In this document: in pieces, positions 9,472-43,581 of the stretch | Position numbering within the stretch: position 1 is the first letter of the stretch | Layout of the letters: each line of letters starts with the position of its first letter | DNA from: an uncultured Bacteroidales bacterium | GTDB lineage: Bacteria; Bacteroidota; Bacteroidia; Bacteroidales; Paludibacteraceae | Reading direction: 5' to 3' | Length of the DNA stretch: 64,000 bases | Assembly (NCBI GenBank): GCA_902782665.1 | Contig: CACZOA010000081.1 | Coordinates: 1 to 64,000 of the forward strand | The notes under the pieces: generated by a model | Seen by the model: the letters and a program-made list of their open reading frames with translations, nothing else | The model's database searches: none | What the model was told of the DNA's origin: nothing | Translations under genes and position numbers: made by a program

Positions 9472-9588
9472 AAAAGTTAAATCAGCAATACATTTTAAAG
9501 AGCCAAGAAAATGACAAAAAGGGAAAAATTGGCACCAATAATGGGAATAATAGCATTGATAAAAGACGGTGGAAAGGGAGATTTTTAC

Positions 9589-9630: not shown

Positions 9631-9668
9631 ACCGGTTTTACGAAGAAGAAAAAAGCTTCGTCTTCACT

Positions 9669-10394: not shown

Positions 10395-10669
10395 ATTCTA
10401 CTAATATAATATCATACATAAGTTTGACTTTATTTACTGCCTACACCATCTTCTATTGGATATCACCGAACTATGCAGGTCTTACACTATTCATTCTTAT
10501 TTTGTACACATTAGGAATTTGGATTCTTTTCTTATTGACATGTTGCAGTTTTATAATCTTCTCATGTCTAATTGCTTTTTTGGATAAGACTAACATACAT
10601 TACAGAATCTGTGTAATCTGGACTGCACTACTTATCACATTTTGGTTTGTGATTCCGAGTGGAGATTGA
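10391..10669 (+). CDS. Truncated paralogue of the preceding membrane protein (92 aa)
   Basis: The 92 residues match the first 98 of the upstream protein almost helix for helix (STNIISYI.LTLFTAY.IFYWISPN, NIHYRICVIWTALLI.FW, IPSGD) and then stop at a TGA exactly where the upstream protein continues into its soluble domain (IPSGDCDPY). It is therefore either a decaying 3'-truncated duplicate or a small membrane subunit made of the three helices only. The reading frame is free of other damage. It overlaps the upstream gene by four bases. Confidence 0.6.
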   Translation: MNSTNIISYISLTLFTAYTIFYWISPNYAGLTLFILILYTLGIWILFLLTCCSFIIFSCLIAFLDKTNIHYRICVIWTALLITFWFVIPSGD

Positions 10670-10706
10670 GAATAACAACTCTACTGCCCTAAAAATCACT
10701 TAATTT

Positions 10707-10748
10707 AAATTTCATTTTGTCAAGTCGGAAAAAATTGCCATATTTACA
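10707..10748 (+). promoter_or_regulatory. purA promoter region
   Basis: TTTG at 10716-10719 and TATTTACA at 10741-10748, separated by 21 bases, followed by CCCG. The 17 bases AAATTGCCATATTTACA are identical to those before the 9669 gene. Confidence 0.5.
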
Positions 10749-10823
10749 CCCGTTTTCTGCGTAGTAGTGAGTAAATTCCGTCTACGCCACATATAAGAAA
10801 TTGAAATACAATAAAATAACAGA

Positions 10824-12107: not shown

Positions 12108-12122
12108 TAATCAAGATATTAT

Positions 12123-12156
12123 TAAAAAAGGTCGGAGAAATCCGACCTTTTTTCGT
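12123..12156 (+). terminator. Terminator of purA
   Basis: AAAAAAGGTCGGA/TCCGACCTTTTTT stem with a short GAAA-type loop and T run. Confidence 0.85.
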
Positions 12157-12204
12157 TTATTGCAAATAAAACTTCATATTAGATGCTGTATTAGTTTTAT
12201 TGAT

Positions 12205-12263
12205 GATTGTTAAGGGCGGAACGCCCTAACCCTCCTATCTTCTGCGAGTTCGTAAGAACGAGC
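12205..12263 (+). repeat. Bipartite palindromic repeat, copy 2
   Basis: This 59-bp element consists of GATTGTT, palindrome AGGGCGGAACGCCCT, a pyrimidine-rich spacer, and a second palindrome around GAGTTCGTAAGAACGAGC. It has the same length and order as the copy at 37965-38023. Confidence 0.8.
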
Positions 12264-12328
12264 AGTTACCAAACAAAAGGTAATGATGATTATTGAAAAT
12301 TGTATAGATATTAAAACAGCGTATAATC

Positions 12329-12910
12329 TCAATCCTTCTTCTCGTCTCTCTCAACCTTAGTCTTTGAAAAATCCTGTAAGAACCATTCCACACTTTTCCA
12401 CTGATCATCATACTCGATTCTATATTCCATCTCACGAGGATAACTGTTCTCCTCTATGATTGACTGTAAATACTGGTGAACAGGTTCAGGCTCATTCAGC
12501 TGCCAAAACACATTTATTTGGCCATCACATGTCTCTCTTGCCACAAAAAGAGCGTTAGGATGATCCGGATCTCCTTTAATGGCAGAATCGAGTTTTTCGA
12601 CGTAGTCAAGCACAATATCCGATTCTTCATGCGTAGGCATGCCATTTTCTTTCAAGTCTTTGTAATAGATGGTGAGCGAGCAAGTCCATCCGAAAACATC
12701 CTTCTCCTTAAAGTCCCGTAAATTGGAATTAAGAACAATTATCGCAGGTTTGTCTTCTTCATAAAGACATTCCACAACATGATATTTTTCTTCCGGGACT
12801 ATAATACTAACTTCTTTCATCCCGTCTAAACATTTTTCCTTTTTCGCTTTTTTGCGATACCATAGGAAAAAACAAAAGCAAATAACAACAATAGTTATAA
12901 CAAATTTCAT
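12329..12910 (-). CDS. Membrane-anchored hypothetical protein, possibly DUF695-like (193 aa)
   Basis: The ATG at 12910 gives an immediate transmembrane anchor (FVITIVVICFCFFLW) followed by the positive stop YRKKAKKEK; an upstream ATG at 12967 would place 19 hydrophilic residues ahead of the helix. The rest is soluble and presumably cytoplasmic or periplasmic depending on topology; the positive-inside rule favours the domain in the cytoplasm. The C-terminal stretch (ARETCDGQINVFWQLNEPE, then YDDQWKSVEWFLQDF) resembles the DUF695 pattern of small Bacteroidetes proteins. I am not certain of that family. No partner gene is evident. Confidence 0.65.
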   Translation of the reverse strand: MKFVITIVVICFCFFLWYRKKAKKEKCLDGMKEVSIIVPEEKYHVVECLYEEDKPAIIVLNSNLRDFKEKDVFGWTCSLTIYYKDLKENGMPTHEESDIVLDYVEKLDSAIKGDPDHPNALFVARETCDGQINVFWQLNEPEPVHQYLQSIIEENSYPREMEYRIEYDDQWKSVEWFLQDFSKTKVERDEKKD

Positions 12911-13010
12911 AATTATGTCTTTTGATTGTTTATAAACACGTAAGATTTGGCAAACACCATCATTCAAATATAATTAATGGGAAAGCATAAACAATCCAAA
13001 TTTACGATAT

Positions 13011-16000
13011 TTATCTAATCAAAGTGAAATGTCCTGTATACACTTTGTCGATATCATTGATATTGATTTCATACCAATAGTCTGTCGCCGGCATTTTAAT
13101 TCCATTATAGACTCCATCCCAATCGGCATCGTCTCCGGCTCTGTACGAAGCAAGTTTTTTACCCCAACGATCAAAGATTATCACCTCTGCATCCGGATAT
13201 CCTTCTGCCAAACCTTTAACCACAAACTTTTCATTTTCACCATCACCATTTGGAGTTATGAAGATTGGAATCTCAATACCAGGCATATTAACAACAAATG
13301 TCATCTCTGTTTGGCATCCATAACTATCTTCAACCATAAGAGTATGGGTAGCATAAGAAAGTCCACTTCGCAGATTATTCTCGACTTCCGGATCATCTGT
13401 TTTTCCATCTATGACATACTTATATGGTCCATTGTAATTTGTTTCATCGAGCTGGATTTCAACCGTCTTATATGTGATAGAATCAACCTGAGCTACAACT
13501 GGCAAATGAATAACCTCAACAGTTTTGGAATCTTCAGCCTCACACAATCCTCTTGTCACGTGAAGTGTGAATTTTGCCAACTCTGGCTCCGGCACAAACG
13601 ATAAAATAGGATCTGTAGATGTAGTTTGATTATTTTCATATATCCACTCATATTCATTCGCTTTATACGAAGATGCGTCGAGAGTAAGAAGATCATTTTC
13701 ACATATTTGTGAAGGTGCGTCAATGCTACCTTCAAGTGGTTTGTGTACCTCAACAGGAATAAAATATGGTTTAGCAGCACAATACTGATTCTTTGCAATA
13801 ACCTTGTATTGTTTAGTGATAGGAGCCTCACCTGATCCGTCGTACACTGGGATGATTATTGCGCCTGCCATATTTCCAAAAACTTCGCCTTCTGGATTAT
13901 CACTCCAATCAAGTTCCTCTACGTATTCATTAGGTGTCACATCTATCTTCACCGACGCTTCACCATCTCCACATACTGGAGTAACAGAAGACAGTGTCAG
14001 ATCAACTCCTGCATAGACAACTAACTCATTTCCATCAGCAATTTGTTGATCAAACCTACATCCTTCAGAGATTAGAGAAAACGAGTAAACGCCTCCATCA
14101 GTTGTTTTCGCTGGATTTAGTTCCAACCTTTTTCCAGTTTGGTTTGGAATCACATTTCCGTCATGTTGCCATTCTATTGTAGTGTTGGAAGGACCTTTTA
14201 GATCAACTATCTGAGCCCACCACTTCTCATTCTCACAAATTGCTAATGCTTCATTATTGGATTTAGCACTAACACTCTTGTCAACAATCTTAAATGAAAA
14301 ACTCGTAGGACACTCATTGATATATGAAACCGTGTAATTTCCAGCGCCAAGTTCCATTTCCGTCGCACCGGAAGTCTCATCAGAGAATGATCCTGTACTT
14401 GTTTCTGTTCCAGTCAAAGTATATGTGCCTCCATTTTTATTGGCGACGTCGGACAAATCAACAGTCACTATTCCTCCACAAGAGTTGAACGACAGATTGT
14501 TTGCTGAGATCACATCAGATAATTGCTGTGCATTGTCAGGTTCAGAAATCTTGATATTTCCGACAAGGCGGCCTTCTCCCACAACAATCTCCTTAACCTT
14601 CTTCACCGCATTAGCTCCGTAACATGCCGAGCTCGACACCTCTACCGTCACTTTCATCAAATCACCTGCATTGTTAAGGCCAGCAGAGCCTGTGTTGTAA
14701 GTTTTGGTCTTTGCCTTAGTATTATTTAAACTGTTTGTCCAAGAGTAAACAAGATCATTCTCAACGAGTCCGCCTCCCAACGTAAGGTCAAGATCCAAAT
14801 CTACAGCAACATTCGGACAAGTTTTATCCGAACCTATGAGTTCTGCTTTCAACTCATGGAACACAACATTAAGTTCTTCCTCTTCGGACGAGCAAGTCTG
14901 CTCATCTGCCTCACCCTTATTGATGACGTATGATCCAGTCACCAAATACTTACCAGCTTCAGTAACGTCGGCAGTTGTAGGAGTACCGTCTTCATAATAA
15001 CGGACTTCACAATCCTCAATGCTTATGTTGTACATTTCTTTCAAATTCTGACTCTCTCCCAAACACTTAGGTGCAGTCTCAATCGCAGCAAGTTTAGGAT
15101 TTGTGTAGACAGTCACAGTCAGAGCAACGGGAGCACTCTCTGCCGCCGGATTGGATTTCAAACGCTGACGTACATAGTAAGTGTATTTCTTTGTCCTCTC
15201 AGTAGGAGATGCTTTCTGAATTGTTGGAGACAACTCAATCTTGCTAAACTCCTGAGAATCATCTATTGTTCCGTCTTCTTTACTATTATACCAAACCAAT
15301 TCAAACTCAGAAGCGGAATTTCCGCCATCCACGCCATTTGTTGTTGCCACAAGTGTATCTTTCAACAATGGAGAATTCTCACACACTGAAAAATCCTTCA
15401 CTGTTGGAGCTGGATATCCCGACACGATTATCGAAACTGGAACGAATTCACTTTCACAGCCAAGAGCATTAACTTGCTTAATTTTGTACTTTTTTGTCAA
15501 ATTTCCAGTCAAGCCAACTACTTCTGCCGGTGTCGGTGTTGCATCTTCCTCATCAATCGGACCTGTTTCATCATCATTATACCAAACAATCTGGCAAGAC
15601 GATTCTCCTACAATAGCGTTCGGAGCTTGCGCAGTTGGCTTTAACACATTTCCATTCTCCACTTCTGTCTTCAAATATGTAATCGGGCTTACCAACGGCT
15701 CACCTACACTCTGCACTTTGACCACATATTCCGTCATATCTCCACGACAACCAGTCTTCTCGTCGTTCAGCGCATACCAGAATGATTTTGGAGATTCATC
15801 TTGTGTCACAGCTCCGACTACCGGTTCTGAAATGGATTTCGCTCTCACAGAATCAGAGCCATCGTACCAATCAAGTTTGAAGCCAGTTATTGTTTTTATT
15901 GGTTCCGACGCAAGTGTTCCCTCGCAGAATTCATCAGGATTGATCAATTTCTCTGTAGGATGATCGGCTGCTACGACGTGGATACTATCCCATCTCCAGC

Positions 16001-21423: not shown

Positions 21424-21803
21424 TGAAGAGAAGAAGGGTCTGTCGCTGGCGTACATGATGCGTCAGAGGAAAGTCCGGGCAACACAGAGCGACCATGCTT
21501 CCTAACGGGAAGTCTTTCGTGAGAGAGAATGTACGGTAACAGAAATATACCGCTGCTTTCGGGCAGTAAGGGTGAAAAGGCGGGGTAAGAGCCCACCGGT
21601 CGTGTGGCGACATGCGGCGTCAATATCGGTCATGGGTTGCAAGATCATGTATACCGACGTTTGAGGGCTGCTCGTCCGAGTCGGAGGGTAGATTGCTAGA
21701 GGTGTGTGGTGACGCACATCGTAGATAAATGGCAGACGCACGGCTTTTTAGTAATAATTGGCCGTGGCACATAACCCGGCTTATACTTCCTCTCTTCTTT
21801 TTT
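21424..21803 (+). ncRNA. rnpB: RNase P RNA (bacterial class A)
   Basis: Catalytic RNA that removes 5' leaders from tRNA precursors. Universally conserved segments appear in order: GAGGAAAGTCCGGGC (P4 5' strand), ACGGTAACAGAAATATACCG, GGTAAGAGCCCACCGG, GGGTAGATTGCTAGAGG, TAGATAAATGGCAGACGC and ACATAACCCGGCTTAT (P4 3' strand). The ends GAAGAGAAGAAGG and CTTCCTCTCTTC can pair as P1, followed by a T run that ends transcription. The ends are estimates to within a few bases. Confidence 0.95.
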
Positions 21804-27663: not shown

Positions 27664-29586
27664 ATGAATAAATGGCATAATATAAAAGAATGTGGGAAAT
27701 TCATACTGAAATCCCATATATGTTTTCTTCTAATGTGTACGGTGATAAGGATCACAGGAATCATCACATGCAGTCACCTGATGTTGGAAGAAAGCAGAAA
27801 TGATTATGCGAAAATCACAGAAGGTGTGCTACGCGGGATGGTGTTCGACAACGCCGTATCCTGCATGTTCCTGCTTTTGCCAGTCTTAACATTAGGTTTG
27901 TTCTGCACATTCGGAATCATAAAGAAAACAGCACTTAATATATTCGCTGTTATAATAGGATTTCTGTATGCTCTGTCAGTTGCCGTTTCAGTTGGCAACA
28001 TACCATACCTCACATACAAAATGGCCAATGTCTGTTTGGCTGACCTATCATATCTGAGCAAGCCAGGGGAAATGATCGGCATGTTGACGGGAGAACCGTT
28101 ATATTTAGCATTTTTCATTACAGGATGGATTCTGATAGCCGCAATCATCTACATCATCTGGAGATTCGCAAAAGCCGCTGACATAAAAGAGGCAAAGCAA
28201 TCATCTTTTTCATGGCAAAATCTGACGGTGACTCTGTTGGCTTTCGTCATCTGCTTTCTGATGGGAAGAGGCAACAATCCACCTGTGAAAAAAAATGGAG
28301 CCATATTCGGCAGTCCTATGACATTCATTTTCGCTATTTATTCCGACGATGCGTTTTTGAATCTGTCCGCACAATCACCGACATTCGGATTATTGAAAGA
28401 GGTGTCCCGTCTAGGGAAAAAAATCAAAACTGGAATAAGCGACGACGAAGCTATCGCCTACGCCAACAACATCCAAAGCAGAACAATAGCCTCATTAACA
28501 GACACTTGTGCAAAAAGGAAAAATATAGTGATGATCATCATGGAGAGTTTGTCTGCACACTACATGAAAACATTCGGTAATCCAGCCGGACTCACCCCAT
28601 GTCTAGACTCGCTGTTCGCAAATTCCCTTGCCTATTATAATGCATGGAGCAACGGAGCAAGAACCAACAATGCGATATTCTCCACACAGACATCTTTGCC
28701 AGGATGCCTTAACATCAACATGTTAGACACACCATTAAGCAAAGATTACACATCATTGGCTCCTGTCTTATCCACTAATGGATACAGCACAGACTTCTTC
28801 ATATCGCATTCAAAGACATTCGACAACATATCCGTCTTCTTCGTAGCTCAACCTTTTGACAAAATACATTCCGAAGAAGAGTATGGATACAAAGAAATGG
28901 AATGGGGATTAAGAGACTCCACCCTATTGGCAGTGGCATTAGACTCCATCAGGCACTTGGCAAAAGACACCACCAAGCCATTCTATTCAGCCATATTGAC
29001 ATGCAGCAACCATCCGACGTTCTCCATTCCGTCGCCATACTGCGACATGTACCCAGACATTGAGCAATGCGCTGTAAGATATTCTGATGCTTCTATAGAC
29101 ACATTTATGAGTAGAGCATCAAAAGAGCCATGGTTCGACAACACCATTTTCGTGTTCACCGGAGACCACGGAAGACTTGTAGGCACACCAGACGGAGTGG
29201 CTGCCACATCGCTAAACCACGTTCCTATCTTTTTCTATGGGAAAGACATAGAGCCAGCCAAAGACTCGTCTCTTACCATGCAGATAGATTTGGAACCTAC
29301 AATATTAGGAATGCTTGGTCTACAATGTCCTAACTTTGCCGGACTTGGAATCAACAGAATGAAAATGAAGAGAGACACCGCCGTCTACACATCCAACAAT
29401 TTCTTTGTCGCCAGAACGTTAGACAAAGCATACTTCCTGAACATGGAGACAAATGTAGGAACGCTTTATAACCTCAAAAAAGATTTCACATTATCAAACC
29501 CGACGACAGGGAACAATCCTGATTTCGACAGACAGATAATGCTACAAATCCAGGCTCTTTACGCAATCCAGAATAGAGAAAAATAA
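27664..29586 (+). CDS. LTA-synthase-like sulfatase-family membrane protein (640 aa)
   Basis: The N-terminal 200 residues contain five membrane helices (about 18-38, 62-84, 90-110, 146-167, 187-201), and residues 285-600 form an alkaline-phosphatase-superfamily domain in the periplasm. Metal and nucleophile positions expected for LtaS-type enzymes are present: E294 in VMIIMESLSA, T334 in SNGARTNNA and an Asp-His pair in VFTGDHGR. Such enzymes transfer phosphoglycerol or phosphoethanolamine head groups. Gram-negative members modify glycans or lipids, so teichoic acid synthesis is not implied. A second member lies at 41623. The gene precedes a TetR gene but has a gap of 160 bases. Confidence 0.85.
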   Translation: MNKWHNIKECGKFILKSHICFLLMCTVIRITGIITCSHLMLEESRNDYAKITEGVLRGMVFDNAVSCMFLLLPVLTLGLFCTFGIIKKTALNIFAVIIGFLYALSVAVSVGNIPYLTYKMANVCLADLSYLSKPGEMIGMLTGEPLYLAFFITGWILIAAIIYIIWRFAKAADIKEAKQSSFSWQNLTVTLLAFVICFLMGRGNNPPVKKNGAIFGSPMTFIFAIYSDDAFLNLSAQSPTFGLLKEVSRLGKKIKTGISDDEAIAYANNIQSRTIASLTDTCAKRKNIVMIIMESLSAHYMKTFGNPAGLTPCLDSLFANSLAYYNAWSNGARTNNAIFSTQTSLPGCLNINMLDTPLSKDYTSLAPVLSTNGYSTDFFISHSKTFDNISVFFVAQPFDKIHSEEEYGYKEMEWGLRDSTLLAVALDSIRHLAKDTTKPFYSAILTCSNHPTFSIPSPYCDMYPDIEQCAVRYSDASIDTFMSRASKEPWFDNTIFVFTGDHGRLVGTPDGVAATSLNHVPIFFYGKDIEPAKDSSLTMQIDLEPTILGMLGLQCPNFAGLGINRMKMKRDTAVYTSNNFFVARTLDKAYFLNMETNVGTLYNLKKDFTLSNPTTGNNPDFDRQIMLQIQALYAIQNREK

Positions 29587-29654: not shown

Positions 29655-29672
29655 TATTGAACGTTCATTCAA
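29655..29672. promoter_or_regulatory. Operator-like repeat 1 for the TetR regulator
   Basis: TATTGAACGTTCATTCAA contains the perfect palindrome TGAACGTTCA. It is repeated 30 bases further on. Confidence 0.6.
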
Positions 29673-29684
29673 TTTTTTCCTATG

Positions 29685-29702
29685 TATTGAACGTTCATTC
29701 AA
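29685..29702. promoter_or_regulatory. Operator-like repeat 2 for the TetR regulator
   Basis: An exact 18-base copy of the first site, spaced 30 bases (about three helical turns) and covering the -33 position of the regulator promoter. This fits autorepression. Confidence 0.65.
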
Positions 29703-29712
29703 AAAAAAGTTT

Positions 29713-29720
29713 TACTTTTG
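29713..29720 (+). promoter_or_regulatory. -7 promoter box of the TetR gene
   Basis: TACTTTTG followed by CAT, 28 bases before the first ATG. Confidence 0.6.
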
Positions 29721-29747
29721 CATTGTTTTATATCTATCTTATAGATT

Positions 29748-30350
29748 ATGAGGGATAACATGAAAGATATAATAGTGCAAAAAGCATTCGAGCAGTACCT
29801 GATCGATGGATATGAAAAGGTGACTGTATCGACGTTGCAGAAATCACTTGACATTGGTCGAGCGACGATGTACTATTATTTCAAAAGCAAAGAAGAATTG
29901 TTTGAGGCCGTAATGAGGAAGTATTTCTTAGACTTCATCAACGGAGGATTAGACAAAGTGACAGATTCGACAACAATATTAGATTTGATCGACATCTACG
30001 TCAACTGCTTCAAAGTGATTGCCAGAAGCATGGCGGACTTGAAAAATCCGAACATCACATTTTCAAACTACACGGGAATTCTATTCTACGCATTCTCACA
30101 TGACGAGTATCTAGCCACAGCAATCAGCGATGTGAAGAAAAAGATCCATTCTGTTTGGGTAGCGGCGATACAGAAAAGTATTGAGAACGGAGAAATCAGA
30201 TCCGACATTGATGTTGACACAATCGCATACACATTTGAGAGTGTGAAAGGAAATTTCGGAGAGACGAAAGCAGACGAAACGACAATCAAACACGAGTTGG
30301 AATTGTTCAAAAAGTCACACTTAGAGTTATATAAGTTGCTAAAAAAGTAA
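29748..30350 (+). CDS. TetR/AcrR-family transcriptional regulator
   Basis: The 200-residue protein has the TetR N-terminal helix-turn-helix (about 24-50: VTVSTLQKSLDIGRATMYYYFKSKEELFEAV) and a helical ligand-binding C-terminal part with several hydrophobic helices (ILDLIDIYVNCFKVIA). Translation may start at 29748 or at the second ATG at 29760. Two identical palindromic sites lie over its own promoter, and a related but different palindrome lies over the promoter of the next operon. It is therefore probably an autorepressor that also controls the acyl-chain operon downstream; a lipid or fatty-acid-like ligand would be usual for this setting. The ligand is not known. Confidence 0.9.
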   Translation: MRDNMKDIIVQKAFEQYLIDGYEKVTVSTLQKSLDIGRATMYYYFKSKEELFEAVMRKYFLDFINGGLDKVTDSTTILDLIDIYVNCFKVIARSMADLKNPNITFSNYTGILFYAFSHDEYLATAISDVKKKIHSVWVAAIQKSIENGEIRSDIDVDTIAYTFESVKGNFGETKADETTIKHELELFKKSHLELYKLLKK

Positions 30351-30361
30351 AAAATATAAAT

Positions 30362-30385
30362 TTTTGACGAACGGTTGTTCGCAAA
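30362..30385. promoter_or_regulatory. Operator-like palindrome before the acyl-chain operon
   Basis: CGAAC-GGTT-GTTCG (30368-30381), flanked by TTTGA and CAAA, lies about 20 bases before the -7 box. It shares only GAACG with the sites at 29655 and 29685. Confidence 0.5.
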
Positions 30386-30400
30386 CATAAAAAAAAATGA

Positions 30401-30408
30401 TAGTTTTG
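30401..30408 (+). promoter_or_regulatory. -7 promoter box of the acyl-chain operon
   Basis: TAGTTTTG followed by CG, 73 bases before the KAS start. No further promoter box is obvious up to 37914. Confidence 0.55.
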
Positions 30409-30480
30409 CGTTGTTTTAGGTATTGTATGTGTAACATACGAATATTGGGACAATACAGAAAAAGATAAAGCTTAAAGATT

Positions 30481-31707
30481 ATGGATAGAAGGGTTGTCAT
30501 TACGGGAATGGGAATATACTCATGTTTGGGTAAGACCCTTGATGAGGTTCGTGATTCTCTATACACTGGCAAAAGTGGTATCATTTTTGACCAGGAGAGA
30601 AAAGACATGGGATTTCGTTCAGCTTTGACATCAAAGCTTGAGATTCCTGATTTGAAGAAAGAACTTTCTCGCCAGCAGCGTCAGTTCATGCCAGAGCAGG
30701 CTAAATATGCATACTGTGCGACAGTAGATGCATTGCGTCAGGCAGGTCTTGACCAAGATTTTCTCGACAAGAACGACGTCGGTCTTATCTATGGTAATGA
30801 CAGTTCTGCAGTTCCAGTTGTAGAGTCAGTTGAGAAGATCAAAGCAAAGAAAGACACAACCCTATGTGGTAGTGGTGCGATCTTCCAGTCGATGAACTCT
30901 ACAGTAACTATGAATCTTGGTTGTATTTTCAAACTAAAAGGAATCAACCTTACTATATCAGCTGCATGTGCCAGCTCATCACACTCAATTGGTCTTGGTG
31001 CCCTATTGATCAAGAACGGACTACAGGACATCGTTGTTTGCGGTGGAGCACAGGAGATCAATCCTTACGCAGTAGGAAGCTTCGATGGTATCAGTGCTTT
31101 CTCTACACGTGAGTCTGAGCCAACAAAGGCATCTCGTCCATTCGACAGAGACCGTGACGGTTTGGTGCCAGGCGGTGGTGCAGCGACTGTGATTATCGAA
31201 TCACTTGAGAGTGCTAAGCGTAGAGGTGCTACAATCCTTGGCGAAATCCTTGGTTGGGGATTCTCTTCAAACGGTGACCATATCTCTTCTCCTAATGTTG
31301 AGGGTCCATCAAAATCATTGGAGATGGCAATCAGAGAGAGCAAGGTAGACTTGAAGAAAGTGGCATACTTGAACGCGCACGCAACAAGTACACATATCGG
31401 AGATGCACGTGAAGCAACTGCTATCGCTAACGTTCTTGGCGAATACAAGCCATACGTAGCGTCGACAAAGGGATTCACTGGACACGAGATGTGGATGGCC
31501 GGAGCTTCAGAAATCATCTACTCTATGATAATGATGAAGAACGGCTTTATCGCAGAGAACTTGAATTTCGAGAATCCAGACGAGGACACTTGCAGACTAA
31601 ACATCCCTGCAAGCAGAATCGACACTGGCTTCGACACATTCATCTCTAACTCATTCGGTTTCGGCGGTACAAACTCAACACTTGTCGTAACTGATTACAA
31701 AGAATAA
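30481..31707 (+). CDS. Beta-ketoacyl-ACP synthase (KAS I/II-like), operon gene 1
   Basis: Claisen-condensing enzyme that extends acyl chains on ACP. All catalytic residues are present: C163 in SAACASSSHS, H300 in NAHATSTHIGD, and K330/H335 in STKGFTGHEMW. The usual glycine-rich end, SFGFGGTNSTLV, is also present. The 408-residue length is normal. It differs from the FabF housekeeping type in the GFTGHEMWMAG motif (usually TGHLLGAAG), which suggests a dedicated secondary-metabolism KAS like those of aryl-polyene or flexirubin pathways. It heads an operon with an ACP 36 bases downstream. No chain-length-factor partner is present, so the enzyme may act as a homodimer. Confidence 0.88.
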   Translation: MDRRVVITGMGIYSCLGKTLDEVRDSLYTGKSGIIFDQERKDMGFRSALTSKLEIPDLKKELSRQQRQFMPEQAKYAYCATVDALRQAGLDQDFLDKNDVGLIYGNDSSAVPVVESVEKIKAKKDTTLCGSGAIFQSMNSTVTMNLGCIFKLKGINLTISAACASSSHSIGLGALLIKNGLQDIVVCGGAQEINPYAVGSFDGISAFSTRESEPTKASRPFDRDRDGLVPGGGAATVIIESLESAKRRGATILGEILGWGFSSNGDHISSPNVEGPSKSLEMAIRESKVDLKKVAYLNAHATSTHIGDAREATAIANVLGEYKPYVASTKGFTGHEMWMAGASEIIYSMIMMKNGFIAENLNFENPDEDTCRLNIPASRIDTGFDTFISNSFGFGGTNSTLVVTDYKE

Positions 31708-31743
31708 ACAAAAGGAAAAACTAAACAATTAAACAATAAGAAA

Positions 31744-31986
31744 ATGGCAAATCAAGAACTAATCGAAAAGATTAACACAGTGTTGTCTGAGGAGTTTGAA
31801 GTGGATATCGAAAACATCACTCCAGATGCTAACATCAAATCTACACTTGAGCTTGATTCACTTGCAATTGTAGACCTAGTAGGTTTGGTAGAGAACGAGT
31901 TTGGTGTTAAGATTCCAAGTGCGGAGGTAGGTACAATCCTTACTTTCCAGAGTCTTTATGATTACATCGCTGAGCACCAGGCATAA
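31744..31986 (+). CDS. Acyl carrier protein, operon gene 2
   Basis: An 80-residue acidic helical protein with the phosphopantetheine site DSL at 38-40 (S39 modified) in LELDSLAIVDL. It is not the housekeeping AcpP, whose site reads LGADSLDTVEL. It presumably carries the growing chain for the adjacent KAS and dehydratases. The gene is between the KAS and a dehydratase, with gaps of 36 and 15 bases. Confidence 0.92.
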   Translation: MANQELIEKINTVLSEEFEVDIENITPDANIKSTLELDSLAIVDLVGLVENEFGVKIPSAEVGTILTFQSLYDYIAEHQA

Positions 31987-32001
31987 GCTAAATTACTAAA
32001 G

Positions 32002-32430
32002 ATGAAACAACCTTTGTACGAAGGAGAAAGTATCAAAAAGCTCATACCACAGCGTATGCCGATCATGATGGTCGACACGTTCTATGATGCTACTCCGGAA
32101 GAAGGGCATACAGGTTTGACTGTTGCCGAAGATAACTTTTTCTGTCGCGAAGGACACTTTATTGAGCCGGGTTTGATTGAGCACATCGCTCAATCAGCCT
32201 CGGCTTTTGCTGGTTATAACGCCATCGCAGAAGGAAAAGAGACTCCAATTGGATTCATTGGAGAAGTAAAGAATTTCAAGATGAATTTTCTGCCTAAGGC
32301 TGGAGACAGAATCCTTACAGAAATAAAGATCCAGAGTGTGGTCATGAACATCACCCTGCTTACCGCGGAAGCAAAAGTAGACGGTAATGTCGCAGCAAGC
32401 TGCACAATGAAGATCTTCATCAAAGAGTAA
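32002..32430 (+). CDS. Hot-dog 3-hydroxyacyl-ACP dehydratase, operon gene 3
   Basis: A 142-residue hot-dog protein in the FabZ/FabA-type group. H52 in EGHFIEPGLIEH and E60 in GLIEHIAQSA align with the catalytic His/Glu pair, but the loop between the two is a few residues shorter than in FabZ (GHFPxxPxxPG). This pattern is found in dehydratases of aryl-polyene-like clusters. It would dehydrate 3-hydroxyacyl-ACP to the trans-2-enoyl form. No ketoreductase is encoded next to it, so the 3-keto group would be reduced by an enzyme encoded elsewhere. Confidence 0.82.
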   Translation: MKQPLYEGESIKKLIPQRMPIMMVDTFYDATPEEGHTGLTVAEDNFFCREGHFIEPGLIEHIAQSASAFAGYNAIAEGKETPIGFIGEVKNFKMNFLPKAGDRILTEIKIQSVVMNITLLTAEAKVDGNVAASCTMKIFIKE

Positions 32431-32449
32431 AAAAGTCTAAAAGATTGCC

Positions 32450-32941
32450 ATGGCAACGACGGATTTGAAAGTCAACGAGCTGAAAGACTTCATCAAAATC
32501 AAGGTCCGCTTCTCTGAAGTGGATTCAATACGCGTCGTTTGGCACGGCAGTTATGTGGCATATCTGGAAGACGGAAGAGAAGCGTTCGGCAGACGCTATG
32601 GTCTCGGATATAACGACATGTTCAAAGCTGGACTGACGGCTCCTATAGTCGACGTGAGCATTCAATACAAATCGCCAGCCACAGTGGACGACATATTGGT
32701 GTTGGAGACAAGATATGTGCCATCAAGAGGCGCCAAACTTGTGTTCGACTACTTATTGTATAAACTCGAAAACAGGGATCTTTCGGATGAAGAAGCTTTT
32801 TCTCCGAAAGAAGACACACATAAACTAATTCTTACTGCCCGCACGACACAACTGTGGATGACAGGCAGTGAGTTGGAAATATCAACACCAAAATTTTTCC
32901 AAGACTGGAAAGACAAATATGGTTTTGGTGTAAAAAAATAA
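32450..32941 (+). CDS. Acyl-CoA/ACP thioesterase, 4-hydroxybenzoyl-CoA thioesterase type, operon gene 4
   Basis: A 163-residue hot-dog thioesterase. The family signature is RFSEVDSIRVVWHGSYVAYL, with the catalytic Asp at about residue 25 and the conserved His-x-x-Tyr region, followed by EDGREAFGRRYG. It would release the finished chain, or edit it, from the carrier protein. Small thioesterases of this type (ApeK-like) occur in aryl-polyene clusters. The gene is 19 bases after the dehydratase and 6 bases before the next hot-dog gene. Confidence 0.83.
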   Translation: MATTDLKVNELKDFIKIKVRFSEVDSIRVVWHGSYVAYLEDGREAFGRRYGLGYNDMFKAGLTAPIVDVSIQYKSPATVDDILVLETRYVPSRGAKLVFDYLLYKLENRDLSDEEAFSPKEDTHKLILTARTTQLWMTGSELEISTPKFFQDWKDKYGFGVKK

Positions 32942-32947
32942 ATTGCA

Positions 32948-33316
32948 ATGTTGCTTAACAGTTATTTTGAAATCACAAACAAGGTTGCTACAGACGATGG
33001 GTTCCGCTATTCTGTGAAACTTAATCCAGACCACGAGGTATATAAGGGACATTTCCCTGGAATGCCAGTCTGTCCGGGCGTTTGCAGCACACAAATGATA
33101 CGCGAGTGTATTCAAGAAGCCACAGGTGTGAAGTTACTCATTTCAGAACTCAAACAAGTGAAGTTTTCTTCGTTAATCACTCCAAACGAAAATCCGAATC
33201 TTGACATTGTATTCTCCCTTTCTGACGAAGGCGAATCATTCAAGGCAAAATGCACAATCGAAAGTGGAGACACCACATTCCTAACACTAAAAGGAGACTT
33301 TAAAAAAGTGCAATAA
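32948..33316 (+). CDS. Second FabZ-like hot-dog protein, catalytic Glu replaced, operon gene 5
   Basis: A 122-residue hot-dog protein with the FabZ motif YKGHFPGMPVCPGVCSTQM. The catalytic His is H34, but the position of the FabZ glutamate is Gln (Q48). ApeI-type dehydratases of polyene clusters also depart from FabZ in this region, so it may still be active; it could alternatively be a non-catalytic chain binder. It follows the thioesterase with a gap of six bases and is translated from the same operon. Confidence 0.75.
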   Translation: MLLNSYFEITNKVATDDGFRYSVKLNPDHEVYKGHFPGMPVCPGVCSTQMIRECIQEATGVKLLISELKQVKFSSLITPNENPNLDIVFSLSDEGESFKAKCTIESGDTTFLTLKGDFKKVQ

Positions 33317-33333
33317 GAGAAAGAAAAATAAAA

Positions 33334-36300
33334 ATGGCAAGTATAGCACTAGCGATATATCGTTTTTTAGAGCGAAACAGACTGTTAATGTATGTTTTGC
33401 TCTTTGTTAGTTTTGCGTTCTTCTTTTATGAAGGAACAAAAATGACTTACGAAGAGGACATCACTCGTCTTCTTCCACAACCTAAGAATGAACACGGTGA
33501 AAACGTCGTGTTCTCCAACTTGAAGGTGAAGGATAAAATATATTTGGTGTTCAAACCAAATTCAGATTCAATAGACCATGAGACGTTAGCGGCCCGTTGC
33601 GACGAATACATGGACTCATTGATCGTGCGTGACAGTGCAAACAAGTATATTGCCGACATTCTTTACAAGATAGACAACAACGTGATGATGGGTGCGATGG
33701 AATACCTGTCTAAAAGTTTGCCTATATATCTTGAAGACGAAGATTACAAAGCAATAGACTCACTGCTTACTCCAGAGACTGTAAAAGCATCAATGGAACG
33801 TAACGCGGCATTGGTTTACTCTCCGATGATGGGGCTATCTGATCTTGTTGCCAGAGATCCTCTTGGAATGAAAGATGTTTTGCTTGGCAAAGTAGACAAG
33901 ATGAAGGAAGGTCTTGGAGGCAGCTACTCTATGATCAACCAGCATTTCTTCACTCCAGACTCTGCTCTCTGCATCGCATTTATGTCGCCTGGATTCGCGT
34001 CGACAGATTCCAAGAAATCAGCCAAACTGGTGACTGAGATGGAGGATGTCATCAAGGATTTCGTAGAATTGCACCCCGACGTCGACATCTACTATCACGG
34101 AGCTCCTGTGCAGAGTGTATATAATTCACGTCAGACAAAGAAGGATCTTGCATACACATTGTCGGTGTCTATGATTTTCATCTGCATCGTCATCTGCTTC
34201 TGTTTCAAAAATTGGGACACATTGCCGATGCTTCTTCTTCCCGTAGTCTACGGTGCATTCTTCGCTCTTGCCACACTCCACATGTATCAGGGATCAATGT
34301 CGTTGCTTGCATTGGGAATCGGAGGTGTAGTGCTTGGCGTAGCATTAAGCTACTGTCTGCACGTGCTTGTCCACTACAAGTATGTATCCGATCCGGAGAC
34401 GGTGATAAAAGACCAGACAACACCTGTCATACTTGGCTGTCTGACAACAATCGGAGCCTTCATGAGCCTTATGTTCACAGAGGCATCATTGCTTCGCGAC
34501 TTCGGTAAATTCGCATCATTGGCATTGGTCGGAACAACTTTCTTCTCACTCGTTTTCCTTCCTCACTTCTTCAGTGTGAACAGAAACAAGAAGAATGAGA
34601 AAGCGTTCAAGAAATTAGAGGAGATCAATTCATATCCATTTGAAAAGAAGACGTGGTTGATCATATCTATCTTGGTCGTCAGCATCATCTGTTTGTTCAC
34701 AAAGAGTTTGGTGGAGTTCGACACAGACCTAAAGAACATCGGCTACAACGAGCCAAGAGTTTTGGAGAGTCAGGAACTTCTTGCCGAGCACTCAACAAAA
34801 GAATACCGCACAATCTACTATGCTACGATAGATGAGGATCTTGATTCCGCACTGACATTCAACAAGACTCTATACGCAGAGTTGGAGAATCAAAAGACCA
34901 ACAAGAAAGTGTCAAGCTACGGAAACACAGCATCTTTGTTCATCACTACAAAAGAGCAGGTTCGCAGAATAGAAAAATGGAATGATTTCTGGTACGGAAA
35001 AGATAAACGTGCTGAGAAACTAAATACAATGATGGCGGCAGAGTGTCCTCAATATGGATTCTCTATGGATTTCTTCCAGCCATTCTGGGGAATGTTGAAT
35101 GCCCATTATGAGCCAACTTCCCTATTTGAGTCAAACGCTTTCCCAAGCAGTTTGAAATCAAACATGATAGAGAAGACTGATGGCAAATATATATTGTTCA
35201 CACCTGTACAGTTGAAGCCATCCGACAAAAACGAAGTGACTGACAGAATCGTAGAGACTGAAGTTTCAGGAGCCAGACGATTCATCATCATCGATCCGTT
35301 CTATTATACAAACGCTTTGGTCGAGATCATGAACAACGACTTCAACGTCGCATTGTTCATCTCAAGTATTTTCGTATTCCTAGTGCTTCTGATATCATTC
35401 CGCAGCACAACGCTAGCATTGATCGGCTTCATACCGATGTCGCTAAGCTGGTATATCGTGCTAGGCATCATGGGAATTCTGGGAATCAAGTTCAATCTGG
35501 TCAACATTGTAATCAGCACATTCATCTATGGTATCGGAGTGGACTACTCTATCTTCATCATGGATGGATTGTTATCGAATTTCCGAACTAAAAAGCAATT
35601 GCTTGTCTACCATAAGACAGCGATCCTATTCTCAGCGTTTGTGCTTATAGTCGGAATATCATCACTATTGTTCGCCACACATCCTGCAATGAAGAGCATC
35701 GGATTCTCTACACTGGTAGGAATGTCGGCAACTGTGATCATCGCATACTCGTTGCAGCCATTCTTGTTCTACTGGTTTATCAAGCGACGCACTCGCAAAG
35801 GACTTGCACCTGTCACTTTATACAACCTGATGCATCCAAAATCATTCTTCCGTCCTAACGGAATGAATGACTCTCAGAAGCTAAGAAACAACTATGAATA
35901 CAAAGGCATAGATGTGGAGCAAGGCTTAAAGGATGAACTTACAGCGACTACGCATTACAAACTATTCCTACGCGACGTGTTTGCCGCAGAGAATGTGCTA
36001 AACTACGGTTGTGGAGCCGCATACTTGTCTTATTGGTTTATCCTTAAGAATGACATTGTGAAAGTATTCTCTTTCGACGACGACAAGGATGATCTGCTTA
36101 CAATCGCGTCGTTCTGCTATTTGCGTAATTCAAGAATGACATTCTCTACTGAGATAGACGACTTGGCAACAGTGCCAAGAAACGTGGAAAACGGTTCGTT
36201 TGAGTTTGATAAACCAGACAACAGATTCTCTATTGTAATCATCAACCGCTCTTTGCCAAACACTGACACTGACATGCTTGAGATTGCAAGCAAAGCTAAG

Positions 36301-36411
36301 ATCATATATGTCAGAAAGAGTGCGTTGGATACATTCGCGTCTTCTGTCAGCAATCTTGGATTCATCCAGACCGCTGAGGATGATGTGTTTGTCCGTTACG
36401 AAAAGAATTAA
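33334..36411 (+). CDS. MMPL/RND-family transporter fused to a methyltransferase-like domain (1025 aa), operon gene 6
   Basis: The first 830 residues are an MMPL lipid exporter: an N-terminal helix (LLMYVLLFVSFAFFF), two large periplasmic loops, and two helix bundles of about five helices each (about 275-425 and 670-825). After IKRRTRKG the chain continues cytoplasmically for about 190 residues with a divergent SAM-methyltransferase-like fold: motif I NYGCGAAYLS (890-899), acidic strand end FSFDDDKDD (about 912-919), and motif IV-like RFSIVIINRSLPN. Some related Bacteroidetes proteins are described as MMPL-acyltransferase-methyltransferase fusions; here I see no acyltransferase HX4D motif. Role: probably export of the operon's lipid or polyene, possibly linked to its methylation. 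Activity of the last domain is inferred. Confidence 0.85.
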   Translation: MASIALAIYRFLERNRLLMYVLLFVSFAFFFYEGTKMTYEEDITRLLPQPKNEHGENVVFSNLKVKDKIYLVFKPNSDSIDHETLAARCDEYMDSLIVRDSANKYIADILYKIDNNVMMGAMEYLSKSLPIYLEDEDYKAIDSLLTPETVKASMERNAALVYSPMMGLSDLVARDPLGMKDVLLGKVDKMKEGLGGSYSMINQHFFTPDSALCIAFMSPGFASTDSKKSAKLVTEMEDVIKDFVELHPDVDIYYHGAPVQSVYNSRQTKKDLAYTLSVSMIFICIVICFCFKNWDTLPMLLLPVVYGAFFALATLHMYQGSMSLLALGIGGVVLGVALSYCLHVLVHYKYVSDPETVIKDQTTPVILGCLTTIGAFMSLMFTEASLLRDFGKFASLALVGTTFFSLVFLPHFFSVNRNKKNEKAFKKLEEINSYPFEKKTWLIISILVVSIICLFTKSLVEFDTDLKNIGYNEPRVLESQELLAEHSTKEYRTIYYATIDEDLDSALTFNKTLYAELENQKTNKKVSSYGNTASLFITTKEQVRRIEKWNDFWYGKDKRAEKLNTMMAAECPQYGFSMDFFQPFWGMLNAHYEPTSLFESNAFPSSLKSNMIEKTDGKYILFTPVQLKPSDKNEVTDRIVETEVSGARRFIIIDPFYYTNALVEIMNNDFNVALFISSIFVFLVLLISFRSTTLALIGFIPMSLSWYIVLGIMGILGIKFNLVNIVISTFIYGIGVDYSIFIMDGLLSNFRTKKQLLVYHKTAILFSAFVLIVGISSLLFATHPAMKSIGFSTLVGMSATVIIAYSLQPFLFYWFIKRRTRKGLAPVTLYNLMHPKSFFRPNGMNDSQKLRNNYEYKGIDVEQGLKDELTATTHYKLFLRDVFAAENVLNYGCGAAYLSYWFILKNDIVKVFSFDDDKDDLLTIASFCYLRNSRMTFSTEIDDLATVPRNVENGSFEFDKPDNRFSIVIINRSLPNTDTDMLEIASKAKIIYVRKSALDTFASSVSNLGFIQTAEDDVFVRYEKN

Positions 36412-36432
36412 TCGATTTAACAGAAAGAGGCG

Positions 36433-37914
36433 ATGAAATATGATGTTGTGATAATAGGAGCTGGTTTGGGAGGCCTTGAATGCGGATACATCTGTGCAAA
36501 ACACGGAAAGAGTGTCTGTGTGCTTGAACAAGGCATCACACTTGGCGGATCACTACAGGTGTTCAAGCGCAAAGGTCATACATTCGACACTGGCTATCAC
36601 TACATCGGAGCCTACGACAACGGTCAGTCTCTGCACCGTCTATTCGATTATTTCAACCTTACACATCTTCCTTTCCAGAAGATGGATTCCGACTATTTCG
36701 ACGAGGTTGTCTACAAAGGCAAATCCTATCGTTTTGCAAACGGTTACGATAATTTCGTTGATGCGTTGGCTGAAGAATTTCCTCATCAACGTCAGAATCT
36801 GAAAAAATACGTTGACTTTCTTTCTAAAGTCGGCGACAATATCTTCAACCAATTCTCTCCTAAAGATCTTGATTCGTTCTACACCGCTTCCCTATTCGGA
36901 CAGTCGGCCTACGATTTCTTGAAAGAGACATTCACAGATGAAGATCTGATAAACGTCGTATCTGGCACAAGCTTAAAACTTGAGTTGAAGAAAGAGACGT
37001 TGCCACTATATACATTCGCTCAGATCAACGACAGTTTCATCCGCAGTGCCTACCGATTGAAAGGAGGAGGCGGACAAATAGCGGACTCTCTTGCCGCAGA
37101 CATCGAAAAGATGGGTGGAATTGTGAAGAAAAACGCAAAAGTCGACGAGTTGGTAGAAGTCGACGGAAGGATCGCCTACGCACGTCTTGCCAACGGAGAA
37201 GAGATCCAGGGTGAAACATTTATTTCTAGTGCACACCCTGCCGCCACTTTGGATTTGGTGAAAGAGAGTTCAAAGATCCGCAAGATATACCGCAACAGAA
37301 TCACCCGTCTGCAGAACACAACGGGAATGTTCACCGCAAATATCAAACTGAAAAAAGATACCCTTCCATATTTGAATCGAAACCAGTACTTCTACGACAC
37401 AGATGATGTCTGGAATGTATGCGATGGCGACGATTCTCAGATCAAAGGAGCATTGATGAGTTACCAAGTGCCAGAAAACGGTGATGAATACGCTGAGAAC
37501 GTAGACATCATCATTCCTATGTCATGGGCGGCAGTCGAGCAATGGGATGGCACAAAAGTGATGCAGAGAGGAGAAGAATACAATGCGATGAAAAATAAAA
37601 AAGCGGAAGAATGCGTAGACTTTGTTTCGAAGTATGTGCCGCAATTGAAAAATGCGGTAGACACAATCTACACAAGCACACCGCTTACATATAAAGATTA
37701 CGTTTCAACTGTAGAAGGTTCCGCATACGGAATCCGCAAAGATTACAACAATGTCATGCAGACGTTGCTGACTCCACGCACCCCTATCGAAAATCTGTTG
37801 CTTACAGGACAGAGTCTCAACCTCCATGGTATACTTGGAGTATCAATGACTTCATTGTTCACTACAGCAGAAATCGTAGGTATGGATACCGTAAAAGAGG
37901 ATCTGAAACTATAA
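36433..37914 (+). CDS. FAD/NAD(P)-dependent oxidoreductase, CrtI/RetSat-like, operon gene 7
   Basis: The 493-residue protein has an N-terminal Rossmann dinucleotide site IIGAGLGGLECG (7-18) with the FAD ribose Glu in VCVLEQG, and the C-terminal motif of this group (LLTGQSLNLHGILGVSMTS). It belongs to the phytoene desaturase / all-trans-retinol 13,14-reductase type, acting on conjugated polyenes by desaturation or saturation. Its presence as last gene of an acyl-chain operon suggests reduction or desaturation of the polyene product. Substrate and direction are unknown. Confidence 0.85.
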   Translation: MKYDVVIIGAGLGGLECGYICAKHGKSVCVLEQGITLGGSLQVFKRKGHTFDTGYHYIGAYDNGQSLHRLFDYFNLTHLPFQKMDSDYFDEVVYKGKSYRFANGYDNFVDALAEEFPHQRQNLKKYVDFLSKVGDNIFNQFSPKDLDSFYTASLFGQSAYDFLKETFTDEDLINVVSGTSLKLELKKETLPLYTFAQINDSFIRSAYRLKGGGGQIADSLAADIEKMGGIVKKNAKVDELVEVDGRIAYARLANGEEIQGETFISSAHPAATLDLVKESSKIRKIYRNRITRLQNTTGMFTANIKLKKDTLPYLNRNQYFYDTDDVWNVCDGDDSQIKGALMSYQVPENGDEYAENVDIIIPMSWAAVEQWDGTKVMQRGEEYNAMKNKKAEECVDFVSKYVPQLKNAVDTIYTSTPLTYKDYVSTVEGSAYGIRKDYNNVMQTLLTPRTPIENLLLTGQSLNLHGILGVSMTSLFTTAEIVGMDTVKEDLKL

Positions 37915-41622: not shown

Positions 41623-43581
41623 TTACTTTAATAAAGTCGTTTTCTTTTGTAAAACCAGATATTCGTATGCCGCAAAACGTCGACGTAACAAACTATCCAA
41701 ATATTGGCATGAATCCTTCGACACCTCTATATACTTATCACGAATATCATAAGCTTTGGAGATTCCAGATCGTGGATCCACCAAATATAAATATGAAGAA
41801 TCTCTCGAGCAAAGCATGTCATCTGTAGAATATGATACTGTAGACGGTGCTTTATCCAAGACATTGTTTCCAAAACCAAGATTGTCATACTCCACGCCAA
41901 GCAACGATAATAATATCGCAGGGATATCAGATTGGCAGCATGGCATTGTCAATTTCTTTTTTCCTAGACGTGGAGAATGAATCATCAACGGTATATGATT
42001 GAAACTCTCCGCGACCTCACATTCTGGTCGTCCCACAATCTTTCCATGATCGGCGACGAAAACGAATACGGTATTGTCATAAAGTCCACGTTTCTTCATC
42101 CCCTCAAAAAACTGCTTCAAACAATAATCCGCATACAATACAATCGCGTACTCTGCATCCCAACCATGCGCATCCAGCCAGTCTGGCACTACGTATGGCG
42201 GATGATTAGAGATCGTCAGCAACACACTGAAGAATGGCTGTTGCATCGTCTGCATCTCATTCAACGCATAATTGACCAAAAAGCCATCACTGACACCAAA
42301 ACTATTGACTATCGAATCTCTCGGATAATCCTCCTGAGATCTGATATGTTTGAATCCATTGGTACGCAAAAAAGCGTTCATGTTGTCGTATTGGCTTTCA
42401 TGCGTCATATAGAAAGCCGTATGGTATCCTTGTTCCGCCAAGACGTTGGGCATTCCATAATACGTCGGGATATCCGTGCCTTTCATGGCATTCCTCGACA
42501 ACACCGTAGGGAATCCATACAATGTGGAATAGATACCTTGGTTAGTATGATTACCGACACTGTAGAAATTCTCAAACGACAAACTCTCATTCCACAAACT
42601 GTCCAAAAACGGAGTCATTGTAACATCACAACCGAAACTTTGCATCAGTTTGGCACTCATACTCTCCATCAGCACAATCACAACATTCGGTTTTTCTCCG
42701 TCCACAAAAACAGCGGATGAGTCTCGTTTACAATGACGTTGCAACGAAAGCGTGTCTGCCACAAAAATATCCGAAGAACCCATCTGCATTGCAGAACGGA
42801 GTTCACGCAAAGCAGTAGCTCCATCCATCAGTTCCAAACCTCGGTTTTCACGACGATTGCTGTCGATATAAGTGTTGAGCAGATTGAATGCCGCATTCAC
42901 CCCAAGTCGGTTCAGGAAATAGTCATCGCAATAATATGCCGCCGACACTTTTATCGGATTATATCCCATTCTTCCACGGATTCCAAACAGACATAATCCT
43001 ATAACCACAACAGAAACAGCAAGCATCTTCATTCTGTCGACGGAAGTGACCGATGAATTGTCAGACAACAACCCAGAGAGAGTCTTTTCCGACTGTTTCC
43101 AAATGAAAACAGCAAATAAACCAATGAGAGATAATCCACATATGATCAGCACCCAGTATGACGGTTCCTCAAGAATCATCGTCACCGCTGTACCCGCCTC
43201 CTCCTTCCACTCAAAAATAGAAGCATTGATAACGTTAGAGAAATATTTGAAATACTGAATATTAGCGGCTTGAAGTGCAATCTCAACAGACAAGGTTGCT
43301 ATCACAACCGAAACTACAGTCCGCCAAACATACTTGTTGAAAAAAGGGATTATCGAACTGACAAACAGCAACAACACGTATGGCAGAACCATCACATAGC
43401 AAACCGCCACATTGTCGAGCCAAAGTCCACGCACAAAAGCCGGCCAAACAGGATTGGAAACTGTAGCGTCGACAAAATCATTGAGATATAAATATTGCGC
43501 AAGTCGCAACACAGATAATACCAATAGTGCTGCGAGATGCGTAGTTAAAACAAATTTGAAAGCCTTAAAGAAACTATTCAT
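41623..43581 (-). CDS. Second LTA-synthase-like sulfatase-family membrane protein (652 aa)
   Basis: Same architecture as the gene at 27664: five N-terminal helices (residues about 12-200), then a periplasmic alkaline-phosphatase-superfamily domain with metal Glu in VVIVLMESMSA, nucleophile Thr in VGNHTNQG, and an Asp-His pair in VFVADHGK. Predicted phosphoglycerol/phosphoethanolamine-type transferase. Its start overlaps the end of the NamZ-like gene by eight bases, so the three genes are translated together. Confidence 0.88.
   Translation of the reverse strand: MNSFFKAFKFVLTTHLAALLVLSVLRLAQYLYLNDFVDATVSNPVWPAFVRGLWLDNVAVCYVMVLPYVLLLFVSSIIPFFNKYVWRTVVSVVIATLSVEIALQAANIQYFKYFSNVINASIFEWKEEAGTAVTMILEEPSYWVLIICGLSLIGLFAVFIWKQSEKTLSGLLSDNSSVTSVDRMKMLAVSVVVIGLCLFGIRGRMGYNPIKVSAAYYCDDYFLNRLGVNAAFNLLNTYIDSNRRENRGLELMDGATALRELRSAMQMGSSDIFVADTLSLQRHCKRDSSAVFVDGEKPNVVIVLMESMSAKLMQSFGCDVTMTPFLDSLWNESLSFENFYSVGNHTNQGIYSTLYGFPTVLSRNAMKGTDIPTYYGMPNVLAEQGYHTAFYMTHESQYDNMNAFLRTNGFKHIRSQEDYPRDSIVNSFGVSDGFLVNYALNEMQTMQQPFFSVLLTISNHPPYVVPDWLDAHGWDAEYAIVLYADYCLKQFFEGMKKRGLYDNTVFVFVADHGKIVGRPECEVAESFNHIPLMIHSPRLGKKKLTMPCCQSDIPAILLSLLGVEYDNLGFGNNVLDKAPSTVSYSTDDMLCSRDSSYLYLVDPRSGISKAYDIRDKYIEVSKDSCQYLDSLLRRRFAAYEYLVLQKKTTLLK

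Follow-up and report, generated by a model that had tools for sequence, protein, structure and literature searches.

The flexirubin (flx) cluster of Chitinophaga pinensis is described as containing ketosynthase (KS), dehydratase, thioesterase, exporter and reductase genes (PMC3992019). Comparable roles are described for the aryl-polyene cluster APE_Ec (ApeA-R), which includes the FabB-like KS ApeR, an acyl carrier protein (ACP), the dehydratases ApeI and ApeP, a thioesterase and an RND exporter (PMC8253772). In the same account ApeR was reported to be required for initiation, and ApeO with the chain-length factor (CLF) ApeC for elongation. Two results speak against a simple reading of the ApeR role, since an apeR deletion strain was reported still to produce the main lipid (PMC8253772) and ApeO-ApeC alone was reported to give the full polyene, with ApeR increasing the yield (PMC8358021). 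An arylpolyene cluster resembling that for flexirubin has also been reported in B. xylanisolvens (PMC12940132). Here we analysed a window of 64,000 nucleotides (the whole stretch of DNA under study) on contig CACZOA010000081.1 of an uncultured Bacteroidales bacterium of the Paludibacteraceae. It carries a compact eight-gene operon, seven genes of which have homologues in the same relative order in a flexirubin-type cluster, and nearly all the rest of that cluster has matches scattered over other contigs of the same genome. We estimate at about 50% the probability that the operon and these dispersed flx genes act together in a single pathway for an aryl-polyene lipid. Word searches of the open literature, mostly at the level of listings and covering few subscription papers, brought up no description of the compact operon.

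The operon consists of eight open reading frames (ORFs) on the forward strand at positions 29748-37914, assigned by Pfam and NCBIfam models. The six gaps between the β-ketoacyl-ACP synthase (KAS) gene and crtI measure 36, 15, 19, 6, 17 and 21 bases, and 130 bases separate tetR from KAS. The operon proposed in the initial annotation is real, and most of the gene types given there are correct; the MMPL protein additionally bears a methyltransferase-like tail. The first ORF (29748..30350) encodes a TetR-family regulator of 200 aa (PF00440, 42.4 bits). It is followed by KAS1 (30481..31707), a FabB-like protein that is FlxC-like by position and nearest to KAS I/FabB in the PDB and NCBIfam, with a bit score of 281.5 against KAS I (1fj4) and 226.9 against ApeR (7F27). 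Its Cys163, His300 and His335, already picked out in the annotation, are invariant in all 45 aligned operon KAS proteins, the window's included. Likewise, the annotated Ser39 of the ACP (ACP1, 31744..31986; PF00550) is invariant in 49/49 aligned ACPs, a few of which come from outside operons. DH1 (32002..32430) is a FabZ-like hot-dog protein that scores 51.2 bits against the NCBIfam FabZ model, below the cut-off of 113. The annotation of DH1 as a His/Glu dehydratase needs correcting, since the FabZ-type loop His is not conserved among relatives, whereas Glu60 and His61 are invariant in 43/43 aligned proteins.

The YbgC/4HBT-type thioesterase (TE, 32450..32941; PF13279/PF03061) retains Asp25 in 32/32 aligned proteins. 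DH2 (32948..33316) is an ApeI/FabZ-like dehydratase (PF07977, 24.1 bits, cut-off 23) with weak PDB matches to 3esi and 6qsr; its His35 is invariant in 28/28. The MMPL/RND exporter (33334..36411; PF03176) has a C-terminal tail, from about residue 830, that is homologous to the methyltransferase tail of long MMPL-PlsC-methyltransferase (MT) exporters (hhalign 99.4%; blastp 29%, 3.75e-7). Methyltransferase motif residues are altered in this tail, and the PlsC part found in the flexirubin-type fusions of long clusters is absent. The last gene (36433..37914) encodes a CrtI/CRTISO-like FAD oxidoreductase, whose AF2 model (pLDDT 92.4) best matches the γ-carotene desaturase 4rep in the PDB (TM 0.79). 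CrtI genes of 91-100% identity to it come from Bacteroidales/Paludibacteraceae metagenome bins.

Compared with APE_Ec, the operon has no counterpart of the acyl-ACP synthetase ApeH or of the ApeO-ApeC KS/CLF pair, as Pfam finds one ketosynthase and no AMP-binding ligase among the eight proteins; Table 1 of PMC8253772, for its part, lists no CrtI. Agreement with flexirubin-type clusters is seen in Massilibacteroides vaginae (genome G031, loci L119/L120; G, C and L denote genomes, contigs and loci). This species has a single cluster in which we counted 21 genes, omitting an opposite-strand 158-aa ORF between x212 and DH2. The order is FlxA, FlxB, KAS1, ACP1, LPLAT, FlxJ, DH1, TE, CLF-like, ACP2, KAS2, KS_2, deacetylase, LolA, x212, DH2, glycosyltransferase (GT), MMPL-PlsC-MT, CrtI, AAT and FlxY. 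Order and roles agree with what PMC3992019 gives for flx, the gene-by-gene mapping being our own. All seven enzyme and transport genes of the operon have homologues in this cluster in the same relative order, at 31-65% identity. Six are reciprocal best matches (KAS 65%, ACP 53%, DH1 44%, TE 39%, DH2 31%, CrtI 40%), and the window MMPL, at 34%, is the second match to the M. vaginae exporter, after a protein on contig C54. M. vaginae differs in having one cluster, the full MMPL-PlsC-MT fusion and no homologue of the window TetR in the 36 kb read.

We then compared the M. vaginae proteins with 13 stretches of the window's own genome (G000; 3.33 Mb in 114 contigs, 87.7% complete, the window being on C81). 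Reciprocal-best matches were obtained for 20/21 proteins, 6 in the window and 14 on seven other contigs. FlxA, an ammonia-lyase, is on C43 (65% identity; 848.3 bits, cut-off 700), the ketoreductase FlxB on C22 (64%; 398.3 bits, cut-off 340) together with LPLAT (44%), and the ligase FlxY on C98 (60%; 647.8 bits, cut-off 520) together with AAT (39%); all three Flx proteins pass the NCBIfam equivalog cut-offs. The KS/CLF pair lacking in the operon has homologues on C18, which carries ACP2, KAS2 and a KS_2 cut by the contig end (57%, 39% and 44%), and on C29, which carries the CLF-like gene (39%). The deacetylase, LolA, x212 and GT genes lie on C10 (42%, 30%, 20% and 48%) and MMPL-PlsC-MT on C54 (36%). 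The genes outside the window include those for a lipid-A-type acyltransferase, a glycosyltransferase, LolA and a second exporter, which has a PlsC domain. The FabH-like protein on C50, the sole one scanned for darA/darB, scored 45.6 bits against the StlD/DarB model (cut-off 450), and a further MMPL/RND match lies on C9.

As the initial annotation stated, the eight genes include neither a lyase or ligase nor a ketoreductase or acyltransferase, and the search that it suggested located a ligase, a ketoreductase and acyltransferases, as well as a lyase, elsewhere in the genome. Its term "stripped-down" fits the operon alone and is misleading for the organism, and its proposed kinship with flexirubin and aryl-polyene pathways is right, as the order of the genes, the reciprocal best matches and the trees show. 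In contrast to flx as described in C. pinensis (PMC3992019), the set here is spread over eight contigs and one block is under its own TetR. C18, C10 and C22 are short, and C18 and C10 may be neighbours, because both end in KS_2 pieces. The dispersal is not only an effect of assembly, since in a close relative (G002, CrtI 96% identical) FlxB with LPLAT is separated by ~63 kb from the long MMPL-PlsC-MT on one contig, and another contig carries the operon.

In the joint pathway, the operon would be a block under TetR control, linked to a flexirubin-type cluster by an old duplication, that joins FlxA, FlxB, FlxY, the KS/CLF-like proteins, LolA, the glycosyltransferase and the acyltransferases, supplying steps for which no other copy was found. 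The sequences show homology, gene order, dispersal, a single operon branch and conserved operator-like repeats, whereas the reactions, product, ligand and joint action of loci proposed here are all inferred. The FabB-like KAS would extend an ACP-bound acyl starter, the FlxB-type ketoreductase from another contig would reduce the extended chain, and the hot-dog dehydratases would leave one conjugated double bond per round, because the set has no enoyl reductase. The CrtI-like flavoprotein, with the fold of carotenoid desaturases, may isomerise or redox-modify the polyene, which the thioesterase would release; the MMPL protein would export the completed lipid in the direction of the outer membrane. 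With its FabB-like KAS type only, the operon alone might make a short chain, and the KS/CLF-like genes elsewhere in the genome could complete a full aryl-polyene.

A genome-wide search turned up neither another FabB-like KAS nor another close CrtI. Four further KAS matches have at most 35% identity each, a FabF-type KAS is encoded elsewhere, and the sole other CrtI match, weak and partial, covers 77 residues at 30% identity. A distant CrtI-family protein of 568 aa on C91 (L098, G000:C91, 7638-9344), beside L-aspartate oxidase, was set aside as a second CrtI at merely ~22-23% identity.

The TetR protein is probably a repressor of both its own gene and the operon, to be released by an acyl-type ligand. 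Upstream of tetR are two copies of a candidate operator, TGAACGTTCATTCA, at 29658..29671 (+) and 29688..29701 (+). All 14 bases of the first are invariant in the 6/6 aligned close relatives, the window included, and 13/14 of the second, whose last base differs in L011. These are the only exact copies in the 3.33 Mb assembly, and a single one-mismatch site lies on C9. At up to two mismatches the window holds 3 matches against 1.1 expected, a count reached by 12/100 shuffles, so the case for an operator rests on the exact tandem pair. An inverted repeat in the tetR-KAS gap, CGAACGGTTGTTCG (30368..30381, +), is a possible second operator; it is conserved in 5/6 aligned loci and changed in L011. 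The initial annotation counted one promoter, but there are two promoter-like matches to TAnnTTTG, which we take to be the Bacteroidetes -7 box: one before tetR (29713..29720, +), conserved in the 6 aligned loci, and one before KAS (30401..30408, +), invariant in them. Both are consensus matches, and the 13-base promoter pattern occurs 9 times in the window against 4.1 expected. The repeats and boxes would fit an autoregulating TetR acting on both promoters.

To the operon's recurrence, a scan of genome contigs with CrtI contributed 77 loci, some on cut contigs, of which 47 were classed as operon-type. The others were fragments without KAS (L006, L010, L065), CrtI genes in other or long clusters (L051, L052, L054-L063) and partial or distant matches (L068-L082). 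Among the 47, CrtI is present in 47, KAS in 45, ACP in 43, DH1 in 42, MMPL in 40, TE in 30, DH2 in 26 and TetR in 7, and this repetition of gene order and content is not due to chance. Exactly one KAS is found in 45/47, the two loci without it being cut. Many loci, mainly from Prevotella, Bacteroides, Phocaeicola and Parabacteroides, have added genes: a tandem-GNAT acyltransferase (23/47), a FabG-like ketoreductase (21/47 by blastp, 19/47 by clustering), LolA (19/47 by clustering), a DUF5686 outer-membrane protein (14/47) or AraC (11/47). A PlsC gene is present in 4/47. Searched with the PlsC protein of L023, the window's genome gave nothing, but this search had no positive control and so is no proof of absence. 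The ketoreductase of L035 passes the NCBI FlxB cut-off (391.1 against 340). The GNAT family is tandem-GNAT by predicted fold (pLDDT 81.2; best PDB TM 0.60); its profile found a single chance-level match among PDB sequences. Probes for FlxA, FlxY, AAT, KS_2, FabH and FabD matched in 0/47 loci within the flanks covered (blastp E <= 1e-5, half of the query covered). The initial annotation had named the opposite outcome, the complete known aryl-polyene set in all related operons, as one that would count against a new system, and this does not hold.

Two TetR-bearing variants have no ACP or MMPL in the locus, L024 (KAS-TE-CrtI) and L029 (KAS-DH1-TE-CrtI). Genes for LPG-synthase-TM-like and CDP-alcohol phosphatidyltransferase proteins lie near the operon in 3/47 loci (L035, at 13254-15268, L041 and L064); such neighbours hint at a phospholipid head group.

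Trees were built from subsets of the loci, the MMPL tree from about the first 830 residues (L130 being a fragment) and the CrtI tree with the long-cluster CrtI of G011, G013, G022 and G037 added and six other long-cluster rows dropped. The operon genes form one side of a well-supported branch in all three (KAS 100/99, MMPL 100/100, CrtI 100/100), apart from the long-cluster genes even where one genome has both. Operon KAS together with long-cluster KAS1 clusters with the FabB of E. coli, apart from its FabF. With midpoint rooting the operon MMPL branch falls among the long-cluster MMPLs; the CrtI tree alone gives no direction of descent. In G011, G022 and G037 another contig holds a long cluster that has KS/CLF and two CrtI genes along with its own KAS1, ACP1, DH1, DH2 and ketoreductase; no FlxA was seen in the stretches read. 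Given the single branch and these coexisting long clusters, the operon is, on the evidence of the trees, a paralogous block and not a recent remnant, and the idea that it is a part required by every long cluster was rejected. The 20 kb read of the second cluster of G004 show no KAS1, ACP1, ketoreductase or CrtI, which is also the situation in the window's genome. From the genomes of the 47 loci, 27 were searched for a FlxB-type reductase, which 26 have (at least 56% identity; G013 is the exception), and 24 of these 26 also show a 37-42% match that is probably FabG. In L126 (G036:C43:86000-105999, 8804-14268) a FlxB-type reductase, KAS1 and a 1163-aa MMPL-PlsC-like exporter make up a three-gene mini-version; next comes a 443-aa protein that by eye resembles an AMP-dependent ligase.

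Several observations weigh against the joint pathway. FlxJ, a methyltransferase, had no match in the 13 stretches of the window's genome, and this genome encodes flexirubin-type exporters at two places, C54 and the window. For second copies of ACP1, DH1, DH2 and TE the comparison covered those 13 stretches, and for KAS and CrtI it was genome-wide. With no other exact TGAACGTTCATTCA in the genome, shared control of the dispersed flx genes is not seen. Furthermore, since the long clusters of G011, G022 and G037 own their copies, the role of the operon there is not to complete that pathway.

An alternative that we entertain only tentatively is that the operon runs a separate, shorter pathway derived from the flexirubin block. 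With neither a KS/CLF pair nor aromatic starter genes, the FabB-like KAS alone would make a short or non-aryl unsaturated chain, to be attached to a lipid or amine and exported without involvement of the aryl-polyene pathway. The lack of a KS/CLF pair, FlxA and FlxY means that a product of its own, so far undescribed, is possible. In favour are the single operon branch in the KAS, MMPL and CrtI trees, the absence of FlxA, FlxY, AAT and KS_2 from all 47 loci with one KAS in nearly every one, the ketoreductase and tandem-GNAT or PlsC acyltransferase that relatives have of their own, and the coexisting long clusters. Also, among 38 genomes, drawn from those of the 47 loci and searched with the long MMPL, 14 have the operon type only, 13 both, 9 the longer kind only and 2 neither, although operon-only genomes are here defined by MMPL type and not by a FlxA/FlxY search, and one of them (G027) has a FlxB-type reductase on another contig that may belong to a further cluster. 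Against it, ketoreductase, LolA and acyltransferases lie outside the operon in the window's genome, and neither another KAS1 nor another close CrtI turned up there to serve an aryl-polyene set. Extended to gut Bacteroidales, the same idea is somewhat doubtful: a duplicated flexirubin block might have become an undescribed second pathway, with one FabB-like KAS, no KS/CLF pair and no aromatic starter, whose short or non-aryl unsaturated chain would be modified by the carotenoid-isomerase-like CrtI, joined to a lipid or amine by PlsC or tandem-GNAT enzymes and placed in the outer membrane.

It is improbable that the operon serves carotenoid or ordinary membrane fatty-acid synthesis, such as an anaerobic route to unsaturated fatty acids that uses a FabB-like KAS. 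The KAS is indeed nearest to KAS I/FabB and the CrtI fold matches carotenoid desaturases, but each gene of the set has its counterpart in the flexirubin-type cluster, a dedicated ACP and exporter included, a FabF-type KAS is encoded elsewhere and neither phytoene synthase nor cyclase is among the annotated recurrent neighbour families. We rejected this function on gene order and the reciprocal matches with M. vaginae. A decaying, functionless remnant of an aryl-polyene cluster is very improbable: the gene set is split and the MMPL tail has lost methyltransferase motif residues, but dN/dS is at most 0.06 for all operon genes against L008 and L011 (several dS values against L011 being saturated) and at most 0.084 for the tail, the catalytic residues are kept, and CrtI is present in 8 genomes of the window's genus (own included), which is absent among 20 listed of the 65 CrtI-negative genomes. 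These 65 belong to 120 sampled genomes of the window's family, 55 of which have CrtI at E <= 1e-60 (own included; long-cluster CrtI counted too). Recent gene loss in this copy, the other outcome that the initial annotation had named as counting against it, was rejected because the compact operons, which are under strong selection, form a single well-supported branch that spans several families.

Elsewhere in the window, a bacterial RNase P class A RNA is found at 21427-21799 (+; 233.2 bits). The operon region is flanked by two LTA-synthase-like sulfatase-domain membrane proteins, at 27664-29586 (+) and 41623-43581 (-); in related loci, the copy resembling the second matches the first.

Described flexirubin and aryl-polyene sets are contiguous clusters. 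In this genome a related set is dispersed, and the offshoot block, which is conserved, turns up repeatedly in Bacteroidales of the rumen and gut. Mining based on clusters would catch only pieces of such a pathway. If the block has its own product, common gut bacteria would contain an outer-membrane lipid that has gone unrecognised.

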